Below, piece after piece: positions 5,550 to 32,580 of a DNA stretch of 64,000 nucleotides. Positions within the stretch are counted from its first letter, which is position 1, and each line of letters starts with the position of its first letter. The stretch is from Jannaschia seosinensis (GTDB taxonomy: Bacteria > Pseudomonadota > Alphaproteobacteria > Rhodobacterales > Rhodobacteraceae). The DNA lies in NCBI RefSeq assembly GCF_001408515.1, contig NZ_CYPR01000253.1, forward strand, positions 1 through 64,000. The letters are read 5' to 3'. The translations under genes and the position numbers were made by a program. The notes beneath the pieces are model-generated. The model was not told the origin of the DNA. It saw nothing but the letters and a program-made list of their open reading frames with translations, and ran no database searches.

Positions 5550-6127
5550 CGGCCGAGGGCCATGAGTGCGGCTGCCCGTTCTTCACGGGTGAGGATGCGG
5601 GGTTCCACAACCGGGGCTCCTGCCTTGTCGAAGAATGGCGTGTCGCGCCACTCTCCGGAAAGATTTTTGGCCAGTATCCGTGATGCAATTCGCGCAACCA
5701 TGCGCGCGGCTCCCTTGTGGCGGTGCTTGCCGTCGCGGCTCGGCAGGAAACCTTCGGCCGTGACCTTGCCGATCGACACGGAATCGTCGAGGCGATCGGT
5801 GTTGACCCCCACATGAGCCAGCCGTGCCTTGAGCGGTGTGAAGAAAAGCGGCGTGTCGCAACATGTCGCATACCAGCGCAAGGCGCCGCGGGAGGTGTGG
5901 CGGAGGACCCGAAGCTTCTCTCCCCCCTGCGATATGTGGATGCGGTCCTGCGTCGTCTGCAGGATGCCGACCCTCTGCGGATCGGCCTGTCCTAGATGTG
6001 TGTAGGCGGAGCGGCAATCGTCGCAATGGCAGACGATATGCGTGTAGGCGGCGGGCGAGACGTCGGTGATCCTGCTCCGCAATGTACCGCAGGCGCAGGA
6101 GAAGCCGAGCGTTCCGTCCTCCTCCAT
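5546..6127 (-). CDS. DUF6151 family protein (GFA-like zinc-binding fold)
   Basis: A 193-residue protein related to the glutathione-dependent formaldehyde-activating (GFA/CENP-V) fold. Near the N-terminus it has the paired cysteines CACG (about residues 11-14) and CHCDDCR (about 33-39), which would bind zinc, and a later CCDTPLF. A TGATG junction couples its start to the end of phaZ, so it is the second gene of a phaZ operon. The family has no proven function that I know of. The coupling suggests a role near PHB breakdown, but this is inference from position only. Confidence 0.8.
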   Translation of the reverse strand: MEEDGTLGFSCACGTLRSRITDVSPAAYTHIVCHCDDCRSAYTHLGQADPQRVGILQTTQDRIHISQGGEKLRVLRHTSRGALRWYATCCDTPLFFTPLKARLAHVGVNTDRLDDSVSIGKVTAEGFLPSRDGKHRHKGAARMVARIASRILAKNLSGEWRDTPFFDKAGAPVVEPRILTREERAAALMALGR

Positions 6128-7452
6128 CAGACGGGAACCGAATCCGGCCCTTCCGCAGGAGCTGAGCGCTCCGCCTCGCGCGCGGGTGCATCGGCGGGCG
6201 CGATCTTCTTCGAGGCGGGCATATCGGAATTCGCATCGATGAAATCGAGAACGAGAGGCCGGATATTGCGCCGCCAGGAGCCCCCGGCAAAGATGCCGTA
6301 ATGGCCCGCGTCCGGCTCGAGGTGGCTGGCCTTCTTCTCATCGGGCAGGCCGGTCAGCAGGTCCAGCGCCGCGACGCACTGGCCGGGCGCGGAGATATCG
6401 TCCTTGCCGCCCTCGACCGTCTTGATGGCGACCTTCGTGATCTTGCCGATATCGACCGGCTTGCCTTCCACGGTGAAGCGGTTCTGCGCGATCTCCAGCC
6501 CTTTGAAGATACGCTCTACGGTCGAGAGGTAGAATTCGGCCGTCATGTCCATCACGGCGAGGTATTCATCGTAAAAGCGGTTGTGCCGGTCATGGTCGGA
6601 TGCCTCTCCACCCGCGACGGCGAAGATCTGGTCGCGGAATGCGCGCGCATGAGTCTCGGCGTTCATCGAGATGAAGGACGACAGCTGCAGCAGCCCGGGA
6701 TAGACCATCCGGCCGACGCCCGCATATTTGGAGCCGACCCGCTGGATCATCGCCTGTTCGAGTTGCCCCATCGTGACCCGGCGGCCGAAATCGGTGACGT
6801 CAGTGGCGGCGGCGTCCGGGTCGATCGGTCCGCCGATCAGGGTGAGCGTCCGCGGCTGCGCGTCGGGATCCCGCTCGGCCAGAAGCGCAGTCGCCGCGAG
6901 CGCCAAGGGCGCCGGCTGACAGACGGCGATGACGTTCAGGTCGGAGCCGAGATGCTTCATGAACTCCGCGAGGTAGAGGGTGTAATCCTCCACATCGAAT
7001 TTTCCGGCGGAGACGGGGATGTCGCGGGCATTGTGCCAATCCGTGATCCAGACATCGGCATCGGGCAGAAGGGACACGACGGTCGAGCGCAGCAAGGTGG
7101 CGTAGTGCCCCGACATGGGCGCCACCAGAAGGATGCGCCGGGCCTTCGGTTCGCGCCCGTTGACGTGGAACCGGAGGAGATCGCCGAACGGACGCTCGAG
7201 AACCTTTTCCACCAGCACGGATTGGTCATGTCCGTCGGCGGCGGCGATCGGCGGGATGTTCCAGTCAGGCTTGGCGACCATGCGGTTGAAGGCGCGCTCC
7301 GTCACCTCGCCCCAGGCGGCGAGCATTTGGAACCCGGGGTTCAGCGACAGAGCGGTCGCCGGATAACTACCCATCGTGCGCGCAGTCGCGCCGAGCCACG
7401 CATTTGTGTTGCGGGCGGTTTCCATCAGATCATAAGCGGCCATGAAACGCAT
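6127..7452 (-). CDS. phaZ: Intracellular polyhydroxyalkanoate depolymerase
   Basis: A 441-residue intracellular depolymerase that degrades stored PHB granules to 3-hydroxybutyrate units. The protein shows an alpha/beta-hydrolase fold with the nucleophile elbow VCQP (Cys178) in place of the extracellular enzymes' serine box, as is known for intracellular PhaZ. The N-terminus MRFMAAYDLMETARNTN is the family's usual start. A strong GGAGGAGG ribosome-binding site precedes the ATG at 7452, so the longer frame back to 7536 is not used. A conserved HYGIFAGGSWR near the C-terminus carries the catalytic histidine candidate. It is divergent from phaC and translationally coupled to the downstream DUF6151 gene. 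Confidence 0.95.
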   Translation of the reverse strand: MRFMAAYDLMETARNTNAWLGATARTMGSYPATALSLNPGFQMLAAWGEVTERAFNRMVAKPDWNIPPIAAADGHDQSVLVEKVLERPFGDLLRFHVNGREPKARRILLVAPMSGHYATLLRSTVVSLLPDADVWITDWHNARDIPVSAGKFDVEDYTLYLAEFMKHLGSDLNVIAVCQPAPLALAATALLAERDPDAQPRTLTLIGGPIDPDAAATDVTDFGRRVTMGQLEQAMIQRVGSKYAGVGRMVYPGLLQLSSFISMNAETHARAFRDQIFAVAGGEASDHDRHNRFYDEYLAVMDMTAEFYLSTVERIFKGLEIAQNRFTVEGKPVDIGKITKVAIKTVEGGKDDISAPGQCVAALDLLTGLPDEKKASHLEPDAGHYGIFAGGSWRRNIRPLVLDFIDANSDMPASKKIAPADAPAREAERSAPAEGPDSVPV

Positions 7453-7571
7453 GTCGCGGTCCTCCTCCGGGCGGATACGGGTGGCATCGTTGCGCCGGGA
7501 TGTTACGGTTTCCCTAAGAGCAACGTTCGAGATCACTTAGCAGTTGCAGCATGGCAGCGGGAAGGCAAGCG
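7453..7571. promoter_or_regulatory. Divergent phaZ/phaC promoter region
   Basis: A 119-bp space between the starts of phaZ and phaC that must hold both promoters. It contains CAGC-ATG-GCAG at 7547-7557, one base off the CTGC-N3-GCAG pattern known for Paracoccus PhaR, and a nearby GCAGTTGCAG. These are weaker than the sites in front of phaP, phaR and ppdK, so PhaR control of phaC/phaZ here is only possible. Confidence 0.45.
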
Positions 7572-9407
7572 ATGAGCGGAGGAGATCACGTGGGCGAGAG
7601 CGGTCGTGACGGAGATGACACGGGTGGCGTGGACGGGGCCGAGGCGCTGGCGCGGCTGAACGCGAACCTCGCGAAGATGGACGAGCTGACGAAGCGGCTG
7701 GTGGCGGCGCTGGCGGCGCGGCGCGCGTCCGATCCGGGCCTGCAGGGGCCGGGGCCGGAGCTTTATGCCAAGGCGATGGCCGCCTATTGGGTCGAGATGG
7801 CGAACAATCCCGGTAAGCTGATCGAGCGTCAGGTCAGCTACTGGGGCCATGCCGTGCGCCACGCGATGGAGGCGCAGCAGGCGCTCGCAACCGGGCGGCC
7901 GGCGCCGCGGGGCGAGGGGACGCAGGATGACAAACGGTTCTCCAATCCGCTCTGGGACGAGCATCCGTATTACAACTTCCTCAAGCAGCAATATCAGATC
8001 AGCGCCGCCGCGATTCGCGAGCAGGTGCAGGATCTCGACGGGCTGAATGAAGATGATCGCAAACGTGTCGCGTTTTTCAGCCAGCAGATCGTGGATCTGT
8101 TCAGTCCCACCAACTTCCTCGCCACAAATCCCGAGGCGATGCAGAAGGCGGTGGAGACGGAGGGCGAAAGCCTTGTGCGGGGGCTGGAGAACCTCGTTCG
8201 CGACATCGAGGCGAATCACGGCGACTGGCTGGTGACTCTGGCCGATCCCGACGCGTTCCAGGTGGGCGGCAACATCGCCACTACGCCGGGAAGCGTCGTC
8301 TACCGCAATCGGATGTTCGAACTGATCCAATATGCACCGACCACCGAAAAGGTGCGGCAGGTTCCGATCGTGCTGTTTCCGCCTTGGATCAACAAGTTCT
8401 ACATCCTCGACCTCAAGCCGCAGAACAGCCTCGTGAAGTGGATCGTCGACCAGGGATACACCCTCTTCGTCGTCTCTTGGGTGAACCCGGATGCCTCCTA
8501 CGCGGATGTCACGCTGGGCGACTACGTGGAGCACGGTTTCATCGAGGCGATGCGCGTGGCCAAGGAGATCACCGGACAGAAGCAGGTCAACACCATCGGC
8601 TACTGCATCGCCGGGACGACCCTGTCGGCAACGCTCGCGCTGTTGAGCCGGCGGGGCGACGACACGGTGCGTTCGGCCACGTTCTTCACGATGCTCGCGG
8701 ATTTTTCGGATCCGGGCGAGATGGGCGTCTTTCTTGACGAGGACTTCGTGAGCGGGATTGAGCGGGAAGCGGCCGTGAAGGGCTATCTCGACAAGTTCTT
8801 CATGGGGCGGACCTTCACCTATCTGCGCTCCCGCGATCTGGTCTACGGGCCCGCGATCAAATCCTACATGCTGGGCGAGGCGCCGCCGGCGTTCGATCTG
8901 CTCTACTGGAACGGCGACGGGACCAACCTGCCGGGCCCGATGGTGACGGAATATCTGCGGCGGCTCTGCATTGAGAACCGGTTGGCGGAAGGCGGCTTCG
9001 ACCTGTTGGGGGAGGAGGGGCTGACGCTGGACGACGTCAAGGTGCCGCTGACCTCCATCGCCTGCGAGACCGATCATATCGCGAACTGGCCCGGCGCGTG
9101 GCGCAGCGTGGCGCGGATGGGCAGCAAGGAGAAGACGTTCATCCTGTCGCAATCGGGGCATATCGCTGGCATCGTGAATCCGCCGACCAAGAAGAAATAC
9201 GGCCATTATGTGAATGAGTTGGGTCAGGAGAGCCCCGAGGATTGGTTCGCACAGGCCGAGTTTCACGAAGGCTCGTGGTGGGGGCGCTGGGAGGAGTGGC
9301 TGCGGTCCCGATCCGGTCGTCTGGTCAAGGCGCGGGAACCGGACGAGGGCAAATTCCCGGAGATCGAGCCAGCCCCCGGGCATTACGTGCTACCCGCCGC
9401 GGAATAG
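7572..9407 (+). CDS. phaC: Class I poly(3-hydroxyalkanoate) synthase
   Basis: A 611-residue class I PHA synthase that polymerises (R)-3-hydroxyacyl-CoA into granules. The lipase-like box GYCIAG places the catalytic cysteine at about Cys345. The conserved histidine lies in SQSGHIAGI near the C-terminus, and an Asp in CETDHIANWPG completes the triad region. The long N-terminal segment of about 100 residues with PELYAKAMAAYW is typical of class I enzymes. I prefer the ATG at 7572, which follows GGAAGG, over the in-frame ATG at 7551. The gene is divergent from phaZ and upstream of phaP and phaR, the usual Rhodobacteraceae order. A 616-codon frame on the opposite strand is a GC-driven shadow. Confidence 0.96.
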   Translation: MSGGDHVGESGRDGDDTGGVDGAEALARLNANLAKMDELTKRLVAALAARRASDPGLQGPGPELYAKAMAAYWVEMANNPGKLIERQVSYWGHAVRHAMEAQQALATGRPAPRGEGTQDDKRFSNPLWDEHPYYNFLKQQYQISAAAIREQVQDLDGLNEDDRKRVAFFSQQIVDLFSPTNFLATNPEAMQKAVETEGESLVRGLENLVRDIEANHGDWLVTLADPDAFQVGGNIATTPGSVVYRNRMFELIQYAPTTEKVRQVPIVLFPPWINKFYILDLKPQNSLVKWIVDQGYTLFVVSWVNPDASYADVTLGDYVEHGFIEAMRVAKEITGQKQVNTIGYCIAGTTLSATLALLSRRGDDTVRSATFFTMLADFSDPGEMGVFLDEDFVSGIEREAAVKGYLDKFFMGRTFTYLRSRDLVYGPAIKSYMLGEAPPAFDLLYWNGDGTNLPGPMVTEYLRRLCIENRLAEGGFDLLGEEGLTLDDVKVPLTSIACETDHIANWPGAWRSVARMGSKEKTFILSQSGHIAGIVNPPTKKKYGHYVNELGQESPEDWFAQAEFHEGSWWGRWEEWLRSRSGRLVKAREPDEGKFPEIEPAPGHYVLPAAE

Positions 9408-9430: not shown

Positions 9431-9447
9431 TTGCTGCGCTGCAGCAT
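9431..9447. promoter_or_regulatory. Putative PhaR operator upstream of phaP
   Basis: TTGCTGC-GCT-GCAGCAT contains an exact CTGC-N3-GCAG core at 9434-9444, the pattern reported for PhaR binding in Paracoccus denitrificans. It lies about 105 bases upstream of the phaP start and near the likely promoter. Sites of the same form precede phaR and ppdK. Confidence 0.75.
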
Positions 9448-9551
9448 TGGTCTTGCAATGCCGCGGTGCAGAAAGTATATCCCGGTCATCCGCTGACGAG
9501 GGCCACGCAAGGGCCGCAGCAGCGAACTGAAAAGCCAGCGAGGATCTGAAA

Positions 9552-9998
9552 ATGATGACCAAGACGCCCGATTTCACCAAATACATGACCGACATGATGG
9601 GTTCGTTCCCCGTCGACACCACCGCGATGCAGGACGCGTTCAAGACGCAAGCTGCCTTCGCCGAGAAGATGTCGAAGGTCGCGCTGACCGCCGCCGAGCA
9701 GTCCGCCGAAGTGTCGCACAAGTGGACCCGCGAGACGCTCGCCAAGATGGGGCCGATGGCTTCTGTCAAGGACGAGCCCGCCGACTACGCCAAGTCGATG
9801 ACCGATTTTGCCTCCGCCTCCGCCGAGGTTGCGTCCGAGAACATGGCCGCCTTCGCCGAGATCGCGAAGAAGGTTCAGATGGACACGGTCGAGCTGATGA
9901 TGGCGGCCGGCAAGGAAGCGCAGGAAGATGCGACCAACGCCATGAAGAAGGTCTCCACCGACGCGACGACCGCGACCAAGAAGACCGCCGCGAAGTGA
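9552..9998 (+). CDS. phaP: Phasin (PHB granule-associated protein)
   Basis: A 148-residue phasin of the Phasin_2 type. It coats PHB granules, limiting their coalescence and affecting PHB turnover. It is helical throughout, rich in Ala, Lys, Met and Glu with no cysteines, and ends in an Ala/Lys/Thr-rich tail (TTATKKTAAK) like other roseobacter phasins. The ATG at 9552 follows GAGGA at a spacing of 8; the adjacent ATG at 9555 is an alternative. It is preceded by a PhaR-type operator and followed by a strong intrinsic terminator, so it is probably a single-gene transcript repressed by PhaR until granules form. Confidence 0.93.
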   Translation: MMTKTPDFTKYMTDMMGSFPVDTTAMQDAFKTQAAFAEKMSKVALTAAEQSAEVSHKWTRETLAKMGPMASVKDEPADYAKSMTDFASASAEVASENMAAFAEIAKKVQMDTVELMMAAGKEAQEDATNAMKKVSTDATTATKKTAAK

Positions 9999-10076: not shown

Positions 10077-10093
10077 TTGCTGCGGTGCAACAT
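10077..10093. promoter_or_regulatory. Putative PhaR operator upstream of phaR (autoregulation)
   Basis: TTGCTGC-GGT-GCAACAT matches the phaP and ppdK operators with one G-to-A change in the right half. It directly abuts the GGGGAGG ribosome-binding site of phaR, so a bound repressor would sit just upstream of the coding region. Autoregulation of phaR is established in Paracoccus; here it is inferred. Confidence 0.65.
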
Positions 10094-10108: not shown

Positions 10109-10693
10109 ATGGCGGACGATACGAAACCGCTTCTGATCAAGCGTTACGCAAGCCGCAGGCTCTACAACACCGAGACGAGCGATTACGTCACCCTCGACGA
10201 TATCGCGGGCTTCATCCGCGCAGGCCGCGAGGTCAAGATCGTCGATCTGAAATCCGGCGACGACCTGACGCGCAGCTACCTTCTGCAGATCATCGCGGAG
10301 CATGAAACGAAGGGAGAGTCGGTCTTGCCTCTCGGCGTGCTGACCGACCTCGTGCGCTCCTATACGGGGGCCGCGCAATCGGTCGTTCCGGATTTCCTCG
10401 CCTCCAGCTTCGAGATGCTGCGGTCCGGTCAGTCGCAGATGATCGAGAACATGAACTCGATGAACCCGATGGCTCAGATGCCCGGCTTCAAGGCGATGCG
10501 TGAGCAGCAGGCAGCGTTCTTCAAGGCGATGACGAGCGGGGTCGGCGGCGCCGGACCCGCATGGCCCAGTGGTCCGGCGCCGGAGGAGATGGAGGACGAG
10601 CCCGCTGCGGCCGCGCAATCGCGCGAGGAACTCGATGCGATCCGCAAGCAACTTGCCGAAATGCAGGCGATGCTTGCCAAGATGAATAAGTAG
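10109..10693 (+). CDS. phaR: Polyhydroxyalkanoate synthesis repressor PhaR
   Basis: A 194-residue PHB-sensing DNA-binding repressor. The N-terminal PHA-accumulation DNA-binding domain covers about residues 6-66 (LLIKRYASRRLYNTETSDYV, then VKIVDLKSGDDLTR). It is followed by a PHB_acc segment (LGVLTDLVRSYTG, then FEMLRSGQSQMIENM) and a C-terminal Glu/Gln/Met-rich coiled-coil-like tail. In the Paracoccus system PhaR leaves its operators when it binds nascent PHB, which derepresses phaP and phaR. The start at 10109 follows GGGGAGG; the frame extends upstream to 10085, but that part overlaps the operator. Operators are visible before phaP, phaR and ppdK. Confidence 0.95.
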   Translation: MADDTKPLLIKRYASRRLYNTETSDYVTLDDIAGFIRAGREVKIVDLKSGDDLTRSYLLQIIAEHETKGESVLPLGVLTDLVRSYTGAAQSVVPDFLASSFEMLRSGQSQMIENMNSMNPMAQMPGFKAMREQQAAFFKAMTSGVGGAGPAWPSGPAPEEMEDEPAAAAQSREELDAIRKQLAEMQAMLAKMNK

Positions 10694-27795: not shown

Positions 27796-30339
27796 TCAAT
27801 CCGCCGGTCCGGCCGGATCGCGTGCGCCGAGGATGGTTGCCTGCGCTGCCGCGAGCTTGGCCACCGGAACCCGGAAGGGTGAACAACTCACATAGTCGAA
27901 CCCGGCAAGACGGCAGAAGGCGATCGATTCGGGGCTTCCCCCATGTTCGCCACACAGCGCAACCGTAAGGCCCTCGCGCGCCTTGCGCCCGCGCGACGCG
28001 CCAAGCAACAGAAGCTCCCCGACGCCGTCCACGTCGAGCGTGGTAAACGGGTCCTCGGGATAGACGCCTTCGTTGACATAGGCCGACATGAACCGCCCCG
28101 CATCGTCGCGCGACAGGCCGTAGGTCATTTGCGTAAGGTCGTTGGTGCCGAAGCTGAGGAAATCCGCCGTCTCGGCAATTTCGCCGGCGCGAAGAGCGGC
28201 GCGCGGGGTCTCGACCATCACGCCGACGCGGAACTCGAACGCCATTCCCGTCTCTTGGCGGACGGCGGCGGCCACGGCATCGATCCGCCGTCGGACCAAC
28301 TCGACCTCGCGCCGGGCGGTAACGAGCGGGATCATGATTTCCGGAGCGATTTCCGCGCCCGTCCGAAGCGCCGCGACGGTCGCCTCGAAAATGGCGCGCG
28401 CCTGCATCTCGTAGATCTCGGGCACCGCAATCCCGAGGCGCACGCCGCGCATGCCCAGCATGGGATTATATTCCTGCATCGAGGCGATCCGGGATTTTAC
28501 TTCGGAAACCGGCCGGTCAAGCGCCTCGGCCAAGGCATGGATCCCCTCGCTCTCTGCCGGCAGGAACTCGTGCAGAGGGGGGTCGAGGAGGCGGATACAG
28601 ACCGGCAGGCCCGACATCAGCTTGAACAATTCCGTGAAATCCGCCCGCTGCATCGGCAGCAGGCGCTCCAGCGCCGCCGCCCGATCCTCGGAGCCTTCGG
28701 CAAAGATCATCTCCCGCATGACGGTCAGGCGGCTTGCGTCGAAAAACATGTGCTCCGTCCGGCACAAGCCGATCCCGTCGACGCCGAACGTCCGGGCGAG
28801 CGTGGCATCGGCCACCGTGTCGGCATTGGCCCGCACGCCGATGTCGCGCACCGCGTCGGACCAGCTCATCAGATCGGCGAAGGCGTCGTCGAGCATGGGC
28901 TCCTGCGTGGGGACGACCCCAGCCAGAACCTCGCCGGACGAGCCATCGATCGTGATCTCGTCGCCTTCCTTGAGCACCGTTCCGTCGGCCAATGTCAGGC
29001 GACGCTTGGCGGCATCGATCCGAAGACCCGTCGCGCCCGTCACGCAAGGCAGGCCGAGCCCGCGCGCGATGACGGCGGCATGGCTGGTGGAACCGCCCCG
29101 CTCCGTCAGGACACCGTCAGCCGCATGCATCCCGCGCACATCGTCGGGTGCGGTCTCGCGGCGGACGAGGATGCAGGGTTCGTCCCGCGATAGGGCGGCC
29201 TGCGCGGCGGCGCTGTCGAAGACGATGCGCCCGGCAGCAGCACCGGGCGAGGCGGCGACGCCACGGGAGAGGACTTGGCGCTCCGATCCGGGGTCGAGCT
29301 GTCGGTGCAACAGGCGGCCCAGCGTCCCTGGCGCAATACGGAGCAGCGCATCGGAGCGCCGGATGATCCCGTCCCGTGCGAGCGCCGTGGCGATTGCGAC
29401 AGAGGCGCGGGGCTCGCGCGGGCAGCGTACGGCGTCGAGCACGAAGAGACGGCCTTGGTCGATCGTGAACTCGATCGACATTTCCTCCCGCAGGCGCCGA
29501 CGGCAGAGCGCGCCGGCCTCCAGAAGCTCCGCATAAATCTCCGGCAGCCGATCCTCGAGGGAGGGGCCGCGGGCGTCGTGCCGCAGGTATAGCGCGGTGG
29601 CGCGGTCGCCCACCATGTCGCGGCCTCTGGCCTGACCGGTGTAACGGCCGGTAACCTGCGGCTCTCCGGTCAGCGGGCTGACGAACTGGACGACACCGAC
29701 GCCGGACTGGCCCGGCCCCATCCCGTGCGCCATCCGCTGCACCACAAGGCCAAGCCCGGCATCCGCCGGCGCGCCTTGCGCCTGCCGCAACAGGCGGGCC
29801 GATGTGCCCTCCCAAGCGCGGGCCATCGATCGCAGAACGCCGCCAAGTTGTTCCGTCAGGGATTGCGGGAAGGGCGCGTCGCACTCCGCTTCGTATATCT
29901 CCAGCGATTCGGCGGGACCGGCGGCGCCGACGAACGGTTCCTCATCAAGGCGCATGACCTCGGTGGCATAGGCGCAAATGAACCGGCTGTAGGCTTCATC
30001 GGCTGCGCACTGCCCCAACGTGTTCGACAGCCGGTCATGCGCATCGCTGTTCATGCCGATGTTGAGAACGGCGCCGGGCCCGCCCCAATCGGATGTCTGC
30101 GACGACGAGCGAACCGACAGCAGTCGCGGTGTGCCATCGAAAAGCCCGATCAGCGTGTCGAGATCGGGCATCGTGCCTTCGGCGATCTTGCGCACCGTGG
30201 CAAAGGGAATGGCGACCGTCTGCGGCACGGGCAGGTCCATCCGCACGAGCCGCTGCAGGCATTTCGCACGATTTCCGTGCTGATCGACCGAGATATCAGC
30301 CGTCGGGGTGACTTCCACGAAACCGGGTGTGTCGAGCAT
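27796..30339 (-). CDS. ppdK: Pyruvate, phosphate dikinase-like enzyme
   Basis: An 847-residue PPDK-type enzyme interconverting pyruvate, ATP and phosphate with phosphoenolpyruvate, AMP and pyrophosphate. The N-terminal ATP-grasp part spans about residues 15-310. Its usual glycine-rich K-G-A-N-L start is diverged to QHGNRAKCL. The swivelling domain carries the phospho-histidine in ERGGSTSHAAVIARGLGLPC (His420), with the regulatory Thr two residues before. The PEP/pyruvate domain has GLCRTEHMFF, MLGMRGVRLG, SFGTNDLTQM and the catalytic ALCGEHGGSP. I chose the ATG at 30339 (GAGGA seven bases upstream). The earlier ATG at 30369 overlaps the PhaR-type palindrome. The divergent N-terminus and slightly short length make paralogous function possible. 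Confidence 0.88.
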   Translation of the reverse strand: MLDTPGFVEVTPTADISVDQHGNRAKCLQRLVRMDLPVPQTVAIPFATVRKIAEGTMPDLDTLIGLFDGTPRLLSVRSSSQTSDWGGPGAVLNIGMNSDAHDRLSNTLGQCAADEAYSRFICAYATEVMRLDEEPFVGAAGPAESLEIYEAECDAPFPQSLTEQLGGVLRSMARAWEGTSARLLRQAQGAPADAGLGLVVQRMAHGMGPGQSGVGVVQFVSPLTGEPQVTGRYTGQARGRDMVGDRATALYLRHDARGPSLEDRLPEIYAELLEAGALCRRRLREEMSIEFTIDQGRLFVLDAVRCPREPRASVAIATALARDGIIRRSDALLRIAPGTLGRLLHRQLDPGSERQVLSRGVAASPGAAAGRIVFDSAAAQAALSRDEPCILVRRETAPDDVRGMHAADGVLTERGGSTSHAAVIARGLGLPCVTGATGLRIDAAKRRLTLADGTVLKEGDEITIDGSSGEVLAGVVPTQEPMLDDAFADLMSWSDAVRDIGVRANADTVADATLARTFGVDGIGLCRTEHMFFDASRLTVMREMIFAEGSEDRAAALERLLPMQRADFTELFKLMSGLPVCIRLLDPPLHEFLPAESEGIHALAEALDRPVSEVKSRIASMQEYNPMLGMRGVRLGIAVPEIYEMQARAIFEATVAALRTGAEIAPEIMIPLVTARREVELVRRRIDAVAAAVRQETGMAFEFRVGVMVETPRAALRAGEIAETADFLSFGTNDLTQMTYGLSRDDAGRFMSAYVNEGVYPEDPFTTLDVDGVGELLLLGASRGRKAREGLTVALCGEHGGSPESIAFCRLAGFDYVSCSPFRVPVAKLAAAQATILGARDPAGPAD

Positions 30340-30368
30340 GATGATGTCCTCGCACGTGCGGCATGCCA

Positions 30369-30385
30369 TTGCTGCGGCGCAGCAA
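30369..30385. promoter_or_regulatory. Putative PhaR operator upstream of ppdK
   Basis: TTGCTGC-GGC-GCAGCAA is a perfect 17-base hyphenated palindrome containing the CTGC-N3-GCAG PhaR core. It is a better match than the sites at phaP and phaR. It lies 30-46 bases upstream of the ppdK start on the same template, a position suited to repression. Confidence 0.7.
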
Positions 30386-30492
30386 CAAGCACGCCGTCAC
30401 GTTACGTAGCGCGCGAGCATGGGTAAACCATTAATGACGAAACGCGTATTCGGGCATCATAAAGCGCGATATTCTCCGCCTCGACCTGTCCC

Positions 30493-32580
30493 CTATGCAC
30501 TGATCTGCGACAAATCTCCCAGCTTCTCGCATGTGCGCACGATCTCCGAGAGCATGTTGAGCCGATTGCGCCGCAGAATCGCGTTTTCCGCATTGACCTG
30601 AACGGCCTCGAAAAACGCGTCGATGGGCGTGCGCAGACCCGCCAGCGCGGACATCGCGGCGGGATATTCCTCGCTCGCCAGCGCCGCGTCGATCCGGGGA
30701 CGGGCGGTTTCGATGGCATCGAACAGCGCACGCTCCTCGTCGGTTTCGGCCAGCTTGCGCTCGGCACCGTAGCTGTATTCCACCCCATCCGCTTCCTCGG
30801 CCTGCGTCAGGATGTTCTTCGCACGCCGATACCCCTGGATCAGGTTCTCGCCATCGCCGGTCTTCACCACGTCGTTCAGAGCCCGCGCCCGGGCGACGAG
30901 GTCGGTCAGGTCGTCGGTCCGGTCCCCGGTCAGGCAGGCATCGATTACGTCGTGCCGGATACCTTCGTCGCGAAGGTGAACCTTCAGGCGGTCGTGGATG
31001 AAGGAAAGGAGATCTTCATGGCTCTGCTTGAAGCCGCTTTTGTTCAAAAAGCCTGTCAGCATGACACCGGCAGGTTCCATCAGCTTCATGAGCGACGCTT
31101 TGATCTTGTTATCCAGAACCACCCGAATGACCCCCAGCGCCGCCCGCCGCAGCGCATAAGGATCTTTGCTCCCCGTCGGCTTCTCGTCGATCGCCCAGAA
31201 GCCCACCAGCGTATCGAGCTTGTCCGCCATCGCTACCGCCACGCTGACCGGCGCGGTCGGGACTTCGTCGGACGGACCCAGCGGCGCGTAATGCGCGGAC
31301 GCCGCCGCCGCGACCTCTGCCGGCTCACCCGCCGCCTCGGCGTAGTAGCGGCCCATCACGCCCTGCAGCTCGGGAAACTCATAGACCATCTCGGAGGCCA
31401 GATCGGCCTTCGCCAGACGCGCCGCGCGTTCCGCCAGATCCGGGTCCGCGCCGACTGCGGGGGCAATGTCCCGCGCCAGTGCCGCGATCCGCTCGATCCG
31501 GTCCCGCTGTGAGCCCAACTTCGCGTGGAAGGTGACGTTCGACAGCGCGTCGAGCCAGTGGTCCATCCCCGCCTTGGCCACGCGCAGATCGTTCTCCCAG
31601 AAGAACTTCGCGTCGGCCAGACGGGCCGACAGGACGCGCCCGTTTCCGGCGAGGATCGTGGCGCCGTGATCGGCGGTCTCGCGATTGGCGACGGTCACGA
31701 AATGGGTGATGCGGCCGGATTTATCACGCGCGGAAAAGAACTTCTGATGTTCCCGCATCGACGTCTGCAGTACCTCGGGCGGCAGGTCGAGATACTCCTC
31801 CGCGATCCGCCCCATCAGCACGACCGGCCATTCCACAAGCCCCGCCACCTCGGCAAGAAGCCCCTCATCCGGCACGATCTCGAGGCCCGCTGCAAATCCC
31901 TGATTGGCCGCGTCCTGCCGGATCGCCTCGGCACGCTCCTCGGACGCCAGAATAACTTTTGCGCGTTTCAGCTTCGCCTCGTAATCGTCGAAGGACGTCA
32001 CGCGGATCCGGCCGGGCGACATGAATCGGTGGCCTTCGGTGGTGTCGCAGGCCGCGATACCATCGACCGTCAGCGGCACGATCTCGGCCCCATCCTCACG
32101 CACGAGGATGCACAGGATGCTGCGCAGCGGACGGACCCAGCGCAGAGACCCATCCCCCCAGCGCATCGATTTGGGCCAAGGGAATTCGCGGATCGTCCGC
32201 TCCAGAACCTCGGCCACGATCTGCGGCGCCGGACGGCCCGGATGGGTGATCCGCGCCAACAGGAACGTCCCCTTCTTCTCCTCGACCTGCCCTAGCTGTT
32301 CCAGCGTCAGCCCCGTCGAGCGCAGGAAGCCTTCGACCGCTTTCTGCGGAGCATCGACGCGCGGGCCACGGCGCTCCTCCGTGGTGGTCGGGCTTTCGTC
32401 GGTCAGCCCCTCCAGCGCCAAAGTCAGGCGGCGCGGCGTGCAGTGGGCGATGGCGCCGGAATAGGTCAGCCCGGCCTCGACCAGGCCGTCGGTGACGAGC
32501 CGCTTCAGATCGTCGGCCGCACGCCGCTGCATACGCGCGGGGATTTCCTCGGAGAAGAGTTCGATCAGCAGGTCGGACAT
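30493..32580 (-). CDS. glyS: Glycyl-tRNA synthetase beta subunit
   Basis: A 695-residue beta subunit of the heterotetrameric glycyl-tRNA synthetase. It carries tRNA-binding and HD-like domains. Family signatures include LLIELFSEEIPARMQRRAAD at the start, RGPRVDAPQKAVEGFLRSTG, FPWPKSMRWGDGSLRWVRPL, REHQKFFSARD, and the C-terminal anticodon-binding helices (ILTQAEEADGVEY, then LRTPIDAFFEAVQVNAEN). Its ATG follows the stop of the DUF6446 gene with no gap (TGA-ATG), so translation is coupled. Confidence 0.96.
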   Translation of the reverse strand: MSDLLIELFSEEIPARMQRRAADDLKRLVTDGLVEAGLTYSGAIAHCTPRRLTLALEGLTDESPTTTEERRGPRVDAPQKAVEGFLRSTGLTLEQLGQVEEKKGTFLLARITHPGRPAPQIVAEVLERTIREFPWPKSMRWGDGSLRWVRPLRSILCILVREDGAEIVPLTVDGIAACDTTEGHRFMSPGRIRVTSFDDYEAKLKRAKVILASEERAEAIRQDAANQGFAAGLEIVPDEGLLAEVAGLVEWPVVLMGRIAEEYLDLPPEVLQTSMREHQKFFSARDKSGRITHFVTVANRETADHGATILAGNGRVLSARLADAKFFWENDLRVAKAGMDHWLDALSNVTFHAKLGSQRDRIERIAALARDIAPAVGADPDLAERAARLAKADLASEMVYEFPELQGVMGRYYAEAAGEPAEVAAAASAHYAPLGPSDEVPTAPVSVAVAMADKLDTLVGFWAIDEKPTGSKDPYALRRAALGVIRVVLDNKIKASLMKLMEPAGVMLTGFLNKSGFKQSHEDLLSFIHDRLKVHLRDEGIRHDVIDACLTGDRTDDLTDLVARARALNDVVKTGDGENLIQGYRRAKNILTQAEEADGVEYSYGAERKLAETDEERALFDAIETARPRIDAALASEEYPAAMSALAGLRTPIDAFFEAVQVNAENAILRRNRLNMLSEIVRTCEKLGDLSQISA

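Follow-up and report, generated by a model that had tools for sequence, protein, structure and literature searches.

A putative PhaR operator before the pyruvate phosphate dikinase gene ppdK of Jannaschia seosinensis and its conservation in the Rhodobacteraceae

INTRODUCTION

The closest described system is that of Sinorhizobium meliloti, in which PhaR (AniA) binds and represses the ppdK promoter, as documented by an efficient gel shift and a phaR-dependent reporter (PMC12542648, mSystems 2025). Titration by PHB is part of the direct repression of ppdK published there, and the same account places Pyc in the PhaR-repressed module 1. The principle of coupling PhaR to ppdK is already known from this 2025 study. 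As cited in it, PhaR controls phasin genes in Rhodobacter sphaeroides, at CTGC-N3-GCAG, and in Paracoccus denitrificans; the targets named there for these two species are the phasin genes, not ppdK. For Bradyrhizobium diazoefficiens, a PhaR consensus TGCRNYGCASMA has been described (PMC6201568), with some binding at pckA and pdhA and with ppc and ppsA transcripts increased in the mutant (PMC6201568, PMC10888616); as is proposed for the case reported here, PhaR touches the PEP-pyruvate node. A term search of the main texts of these last two papers returned neither ppdK nor dikinase. Among the matches listed for PhaR with PPDK or ppdK, only the S. meliloti paper concerns the link, and we found no report of it for the Rhodobacteraceae among the matches listed, which covered titles and the starts of abstracts, with subscription papers mostly outside.

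RESULTS AND DISCUSSION

A perfect palindrome precedes ppdK

The window, a stretch of 64,000 nucleotides of the Jannaschia seosinensis genome, contains ppdK on the minus strand (positions 27796 to 30339), encoding a pyruvate phosphate dikinase of 847 residues. Upstream of it, at 30369 to 30385, lies the putative PhaR-type operator TTGCTGCGGCGCAGCAA, TTGCTGC-GGC-GCAGCAA, a perfect dyad whose centre, GGC/GCC, fits R-N-Y. The best start codon of ppdK is the ATG at 30339-30337, which is preceded by a Shine-Dalgarno-like GAGGA read from the minus strand at 30351-30347 and which places the palindrome 30 to 46 nt upstream. An alternative in-frame ATG at 30369 could lengthen the open reading frame and would overlap the palindrome; the downstream ATG is preferred because the ppdK match starts there throughout the 20 genomes of the genus. 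Next upstream, also on the minus strand, is glyS (30493 to 32580, TIGR00211), 153 nt before ppdK.

The palindrome and its spacing are as the earlier note had described them, and the near-copies that it named are real: one at 9431 to 9447 before phaP, with one mismatch, and one at 10077 to 10093 before phaR, with two. It noticed no further intergenic copy in the 64 kb and so overlooked ATGCCGCGGTGCAGAAA at 9458 to 9474, which forms a tandem pair with the first phaP site and has three mismatches to the perfect 17-mer. At up to three mismatches the window holds 12 matches, against 3.10 in shuffled sequence (standard deviation, 1.85; largest, 8; 100 shuffles). The whole-genome scan that the note had proposed found the perfect 17-mer once in 3.83 Mb, before ppdK. 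Only two places genome-wide differ from it by a single mismatch, the phaP site at 9431 and a site on contig 78, the centre of which, AGA, does not fit R-N-Y. A degenerate motif, WTKCYGCRNYGCRGMAW, searched with at most one mismatch, occurs at 35 places in the genome versus 9 for the reversed control; six of the 35 match it exactly, namely, phaP twice, ppdK, and three others.

The pha locus, about 20 kb from the ppdK palindrome, comprises a phaZ-like PHB depolymerase gene (6127 to 7536, minus strand; PHB_depo_C) and, on the plus strand, the PHB synthase gene phaC (7551 to 9407; PhaC_N), the phasin gene phaP (9552 to 9998; Phasin_2), and phaR, encoding the PHA synthesis repressor (10109 to 10693; TIGR01848 at 149.9 bits, cutoff 109.45, with PHB_acc_N and PHB_acc). 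It is the one TIGR01848 match above the cutoff in the genome. The established PhaR targets of this genome carry the same motif as ppdK, phaP twice (TTGCTGCGCTGCAGCAT at 9431 to 9447 and ATGCCGCGGTGCAGAAA) and phaR once (TTGCTGCGGTGCAACAT at 10077 to 10093).

A matrix built from phaP and phaR promoters recovers the ppdK site

For scoring, we built a 17-position matrix from 74 sites in phaP and phaR promoters; ppdK sites were kept out of the training set in order to avoid circularity. The input consisted of 30 phaR loci of relatives, fetched by their PhaR domain (locus L161 yielded no site), and the three sites of the window's own pha locus. Sites were chosen by agreement with TTGCTGC-N3-GCAGCAA at 11 or more of the 14 positions, a pattern that leaves the centre free; the centre nevertheless emerged as R-N-Y unprompted, R making up 98% of its first position once the matrix was symmetrised. 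The consensus sequences published for S. meliloti (PMC12542648) and for B. diazoefficiens (PMC6201568) have an R-N-Y centre as well. A phaP-region site of at least 8 bits was present in 28 of the 30 training loci, and a phaR-proximal one was present in 21.

In the window, exactly four sites exceed 20 bits: those at 9431 (26.2 bits), 30369 (24.7 bits), 10077 (22.5 bits), and 9458 (20.9 bits). The next best reaches 10.4 bits. The ppdK site, the only one of the four outside the training set, scores 24.7 of 27.8 possible bits and combines the CTGC-N3-GCAG palindrome with a YGC-RNY-GCR core. It shares this core with the S. meliloti operator (ATTTGGTGCACTGCAACAAAA), along with the regulator family and the target reaction, and the B. 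diazoefficiens consensus TGCRNYGCASMA likewise fits TGCGGCGCAGCA. The core motif is also that of the PhaR sites of R. sphaeroides and P. denitrificans cited in PMC12542648; in the window it occurs twice before phaP and once before phaR. The published S. meliloti operator, in contrast, lies 184 nt before the ATG and has AT-rich arms, whereas that of the window lies 30 to 46 nt before it and has CTGC arms; in most relatives of the window, again unlike S. meliloti, CTGC arms surround the start codon.

The site is conserved before ppdK in the family and in the genus

Eighty ppdK loci were assigned to the Rhodobacteraceae by name or by closeness to the query; dropping L114, which has no upstream DNA, and adding the window left 80 upstream regions. 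Sites of at least 8, 10, and 16 bits were present in 69, 66, and 58 of them, respectively. Controls of equal size, 1,016 stretches cut from the ppdK coding sequences and flanks of these loci, gave counts of 29, 19, and 2 (best control, 22.6 bits), and 400 shuffles gave 3, 0, and 0. Within the window's genus, a site of 9.7 to 25.0 bits precedes ppdK in 20 of 20 genomes, a set that overlaps the 80 regions, as L037 and L038 share the sites of G349 and G347. It lies 29 to 42 nt before the ATG in 19 of these genomes and 56 nt before it in G355. The intergenic region is otherwise divergent in the genus, apart from two conserved islands, the palindrome and, about 4 nt downstream, a TATGCTGC block. 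The alignment of upstream regions across relatives, which the earlier note had suggested as a check, hence found the palindrome conserved, at 10 bits or more in 66 of 80 regions of the family and in every genome of the genus.

Three Paracoccus ppdK regions (L097, L110, and L111) contain no PhaR site, though PhaR is present, and Paracoccus may be a genus without the PhaR-ppdK link. Nor was there enrichment before the canonical ppdK genes of other alphaproteobacterial families: with a matrix made from S. meliloti sites, 2 of 28 regions reached 8 bits, compared to 26 of 389 controls (best 30 loci from 114 genomes, selected irrespective of PhaR presence, less two at contig edges). Class-wide conservation before canonical ppdK was thus not found among these best-scoring loci, which suggests that the link is lineage specific and may have arisen more than once.

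The position of the putative operator relative to the presumed promoter and the start codon

Among 107 ppdK loci examined, 81 have a nearby site, and in 65 of these an in-frame start-type codon of ppdK forms the palindrome's centre. The sequences listed for such loci mostly read ribosome site, TGCCGCA, RTG, and CAG, the centre being mostly GTG or ATG. Because the centre coincides with the start codon so often, part of the conservation could be translational, and the block might even be nothing but a translation initiation element, composed of a Shine-Dalgarno sequence, a fixed spacer, an RTG start, and a Met-Gln N terminus, with no transcriptional role. Spacers between ribosome site and start codon, however, are normally not fixed in sequence. 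Moreover, in the window's genus the motif lies upstream, apart from the start codon; genome G052, which has no PhaR, retains a GTG-CAA-CAG (Met-Gln-Gln) start where no palindrome is present; and the sequence of the block is that of the phaP and phaR sites. On these grounds, we judge it very unlikely that translation is the sole cause of the conservation.

An TATNCTGC block, presumed to be a -10 element with a CTGC half-site, is found no more than 90 nt from the start of the match in 46 of 79 family loci versus 0.8% of shuffles, in 14 of 20 upstream regions of the genus versus 0% of shuffles, and in 3 of 29 pyc regions. The palindrome stands upstream of this block in the window's genus and downstream of it in most of the family, which we read as a move of the operator between the two. 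The window's counterpart of the relatives' TATGCTGC block, according to the genus alignment, is CATGCCGC on the minus strand at 30358 to 30365, a putative promoter element assigned by eye; its -10 block (CATGCC) is weak, and a sigma-70 promoter scan of 30300 to 30560 returned no match. With this assignment, the operator of the genus would overlap the -35/spacer region of the ppdK promoter, and in most of the family it would cover the ribosome-site spacer and the start codon, just downstream of the promoter.

Alternatively, the palindrome could be an RNA hairpin in the 5' leader, acting as an attenuator or stability element. The window's leader does fold with an energy of -31 kcal/mol (z = -2.33), which 4 of 200 shuffles equalled or bettered, and in some members of the genus the dyad changes on both sides. 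Yet stem pairs are often mismatched: outside the genus, 39 of 61 family sites have G-A at pair 3-15 and 43 have C-A at pair 5-13; within the genus, pair 4-14 is C-A in 6 of 20 members, and the palindrome folds on itself in 3 of 20 leaders, as judged by eye with an assumed transcript start. In addition, phaP bears the same motif in its promoter region, and no terminator-like site was found at 30300 to 30560. We therefore rejected the hairpin, which mismatched stem positions in most family sites make hardly credible.

No nearby site in seven genomes without PhaR and PHB synthase

A search for PhaR, entered with 50 of the 80 ppdK loci, detected it in 48 of the 49 genomes covered; across the family, it was detected in 289 of 296 genomes. 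One of the carriers, a metagenome-assembled genome labelled Exiguobacterium profundum SSD5 (L082), has a Rhodobacteraceae-type ppdK as well as PhaR and looks like a mislabelled Rhodobacteraceae genome. Seven of eight PhaR-free genomes also lack the PHB synthase; the eighth, G155, a draft in 590 contigs with PhaC at a contig edge and a ppdK site of 22.2 bits, was set aside. Between -120 and +40 of the ppdK match or estimated start, 0 of the 7 PHB-free genomes had a site scoring 8 bits or more, versus 51 of 69 PhaR-positive genomes (Fisher P = 2.2e-4, kinship ignored). The 69 include the window, and 20 of them were chosen by hand, in most cases because the PhaR score was divergent or the genome small. 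The 18 PhaR-positive genomes in which no nearby site was found include the three Paracoccus genomes and the Rubellimicrobium examined.

Within Planktomarina, L105 has PhaR and the site, and its sister L107 has neither. In the PHB-free genome G132, a 9.8-bit match occurs 180 nt upstream and lacks the full GC core. A quick FastTree tree of ppdK, in which some long branches are doubtful, requires seven changes to explain the losses, six of them on well-supported branches. Kinship-aware independent pairs gave no discordant pair, and with too few pairs for significance the median P was 0.25.

This distribution also bears on whether a different regulator that recognises CTGC-N3-GCAG might control ppdK, phaP, and phaR together. 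Other regulators do act on the PEP-pyruvate node in alphaproteobacteria, and PhaR as the binder of the window's palindrome is a prediction. Against another regulator, the nearby site is missing from all seven genomes without PhaR and PhaC, and the PhaR sites described for R. sphaeroides, S. meliloti (PMC12542648), and B. diazoefficiens (PMC6201568) show the same pattern. We consider another regulator highly improbable.

PhaR as a probable link between stored carbon and the PEP-pyruvate node

It is very probable, in our estimation, that the palindrome is an operator of PhaR, the PHB-binding repressor, and that ppdK is repressed until PHB titrates PhaR away. The motif is the same as at phaP and phaR, it is conserved, and it is missing near ppdK in the seven genomes without PhaR and PHB synthase; for Jannaschia seosinensis, binding of PhaR, repression, and release by PHB at ppdK are what we infer from these comparisons. 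In the proposed sequence of events, PhaR would sit on the operator and block ppdK transcription when there is no PHB. Once PHB accumulates, PhaR would move to the granules, relieving repression of the phasin gene at the same time, and its departure would derepress ppdK; pyruvate would then be converted to PEP while acetyl-CoA is already being stored. The coupling of storage-polymer status to pyruvate/PEP interconversion, as the earlier note had proposed it, is supported by the 66 of 80 family regions, the 20 of 20 genus members, the 0 of 7 genomes free of PhaR and PhaC, and the published S. meliloti precedent (PMC12542648).

If the reading is correct, the control of central metabolism by PHB sensing that was demonstrated in one rhizobium would extend to the Rhodobacteraceae, and ppdK, probably with pyc, would be derepressed in phaR mutants and by PHB. 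The comparison suggests that stored carbon controls central metabolism in many members of the family, and relatives predicted to have or to lack the link can be named, Paracoccus being one without it. It also offers a case in which an operator seemingly changes position while the link between regulator and target is kept. As far as the literature searches show, four points are new: conservation across the family, an apparent loss with PHB, the shift in operator position, and pyc as a probable second target. The interpretation is well supported by comparison, and the position of the operator is unusual and changing.

A broader proposal is that PhaR came to control the conversion of pyruvate to PEP on more than one occasion in the Alphaproteobacteria: at a canonical ppdK in rhizobia, and in Rhodobacteraceae at a divergent ppdK, with an operator that is usually at the start codon but moved into the promoter in the window's genus and with pyc added. 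In that case, the sensor of the storage polymer would have become a master switch of the PEP-pyruvate-oxaloacetate node repeatedly, to be abandoned with the loss of PHB. To this proposal we would assign about an even chance.

Other candidate targets

Upstream of pyc in the same genome, by 36 nt, lies a PhaR-type site, TTGCCGCGTCGCAGCAC, of 14.4 bits (G000:C23:32433-32449; L121:1001-1017). In 30 hand-picked genomes, one of which (G021) was dropped for lack of a close match, sites of at least 8 bits occur in 13 of 29 pyc regions within 100 nt and in 15 of 29 within 330 nt, compared to 0 of 29 coding controls; none was found before pyc in the three PHB-free genomes. We regard pyc as probably a second, weaker PhaR target.

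Three weaker candidates came from the genome scan. The gene typA/bipA has an exact match to the degenerate motif 38 nt upstream (19.4 bits; L167:1501-1517; G000:C173:16694-16710); typA of S. meliloti is affected by PhaR in the opposite direction, as part of the activated module 4 (PMC12542648). A second exact match immediately precedes the probable start of a TRAP transporter solute-binding protein gene of the DctP family (20.4 bits; L169:1501-1517; G000:C213:14933-14949). A PhaR-like site between the isocitrate lyase gene aceA and a divergent gene for an XRE/IrrE-type regulator (16.9 bits; L279:1001-1017; G000:C142:34559-34575) has the centre AGA, which is not R-N-Y; isocitrate lyase belongs to PhaR module 1 in the S. 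meliloti study (PMC12542648). Several further sites fall within genes, including one of 25.8 bits in an Lrp-type gene, and probably arise by chance.

The enzyme encoded by ppdK

The ppdK product scores 830.2 bits with TIGR01828, just below the cutoff of 843.45, and no other gene of the genome exceeds 88.1 bits. In its centre and C terminus, H420, R527, R583, E710, N733, D734, and C796 are invariant in 27 of 27 aligned sequences; judging by the motifs around them, we take these to be the textbook catalytic His and the PEP/pyruvate-site residues. The predicted structure (pLDDT, 87.0) matches the three-domain PPDK fold along its whole length, including the nucleotide-binding domain; its top 17 matches are all PPDK structures, and the leading one has a TM score of 0.83 over 885 columns. 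Fold and catalytic residues support the assignment as a genuine PPDK. Flux analysis of two roseobacters detected no pyruvate-to-PEP flux under the conditions described there (PMC2761930), a result that fits a repressed ppdK, though it is no test of repression. In Haloferax, a PEP-synthase-like protein is described to have become a repressor of phaR (PMC10948481).

Unlike the canonical S. meliloti ppdK, that of the window encodes a weakly recognised N-terminal domain, and PPDK_N of Pfam gave no match to it at an E value of 0.001. The nucleotide-binding domain has diverged, such that LLQCRNGKRT of the T. brucei enzyme reads VLDAVRCPRE.
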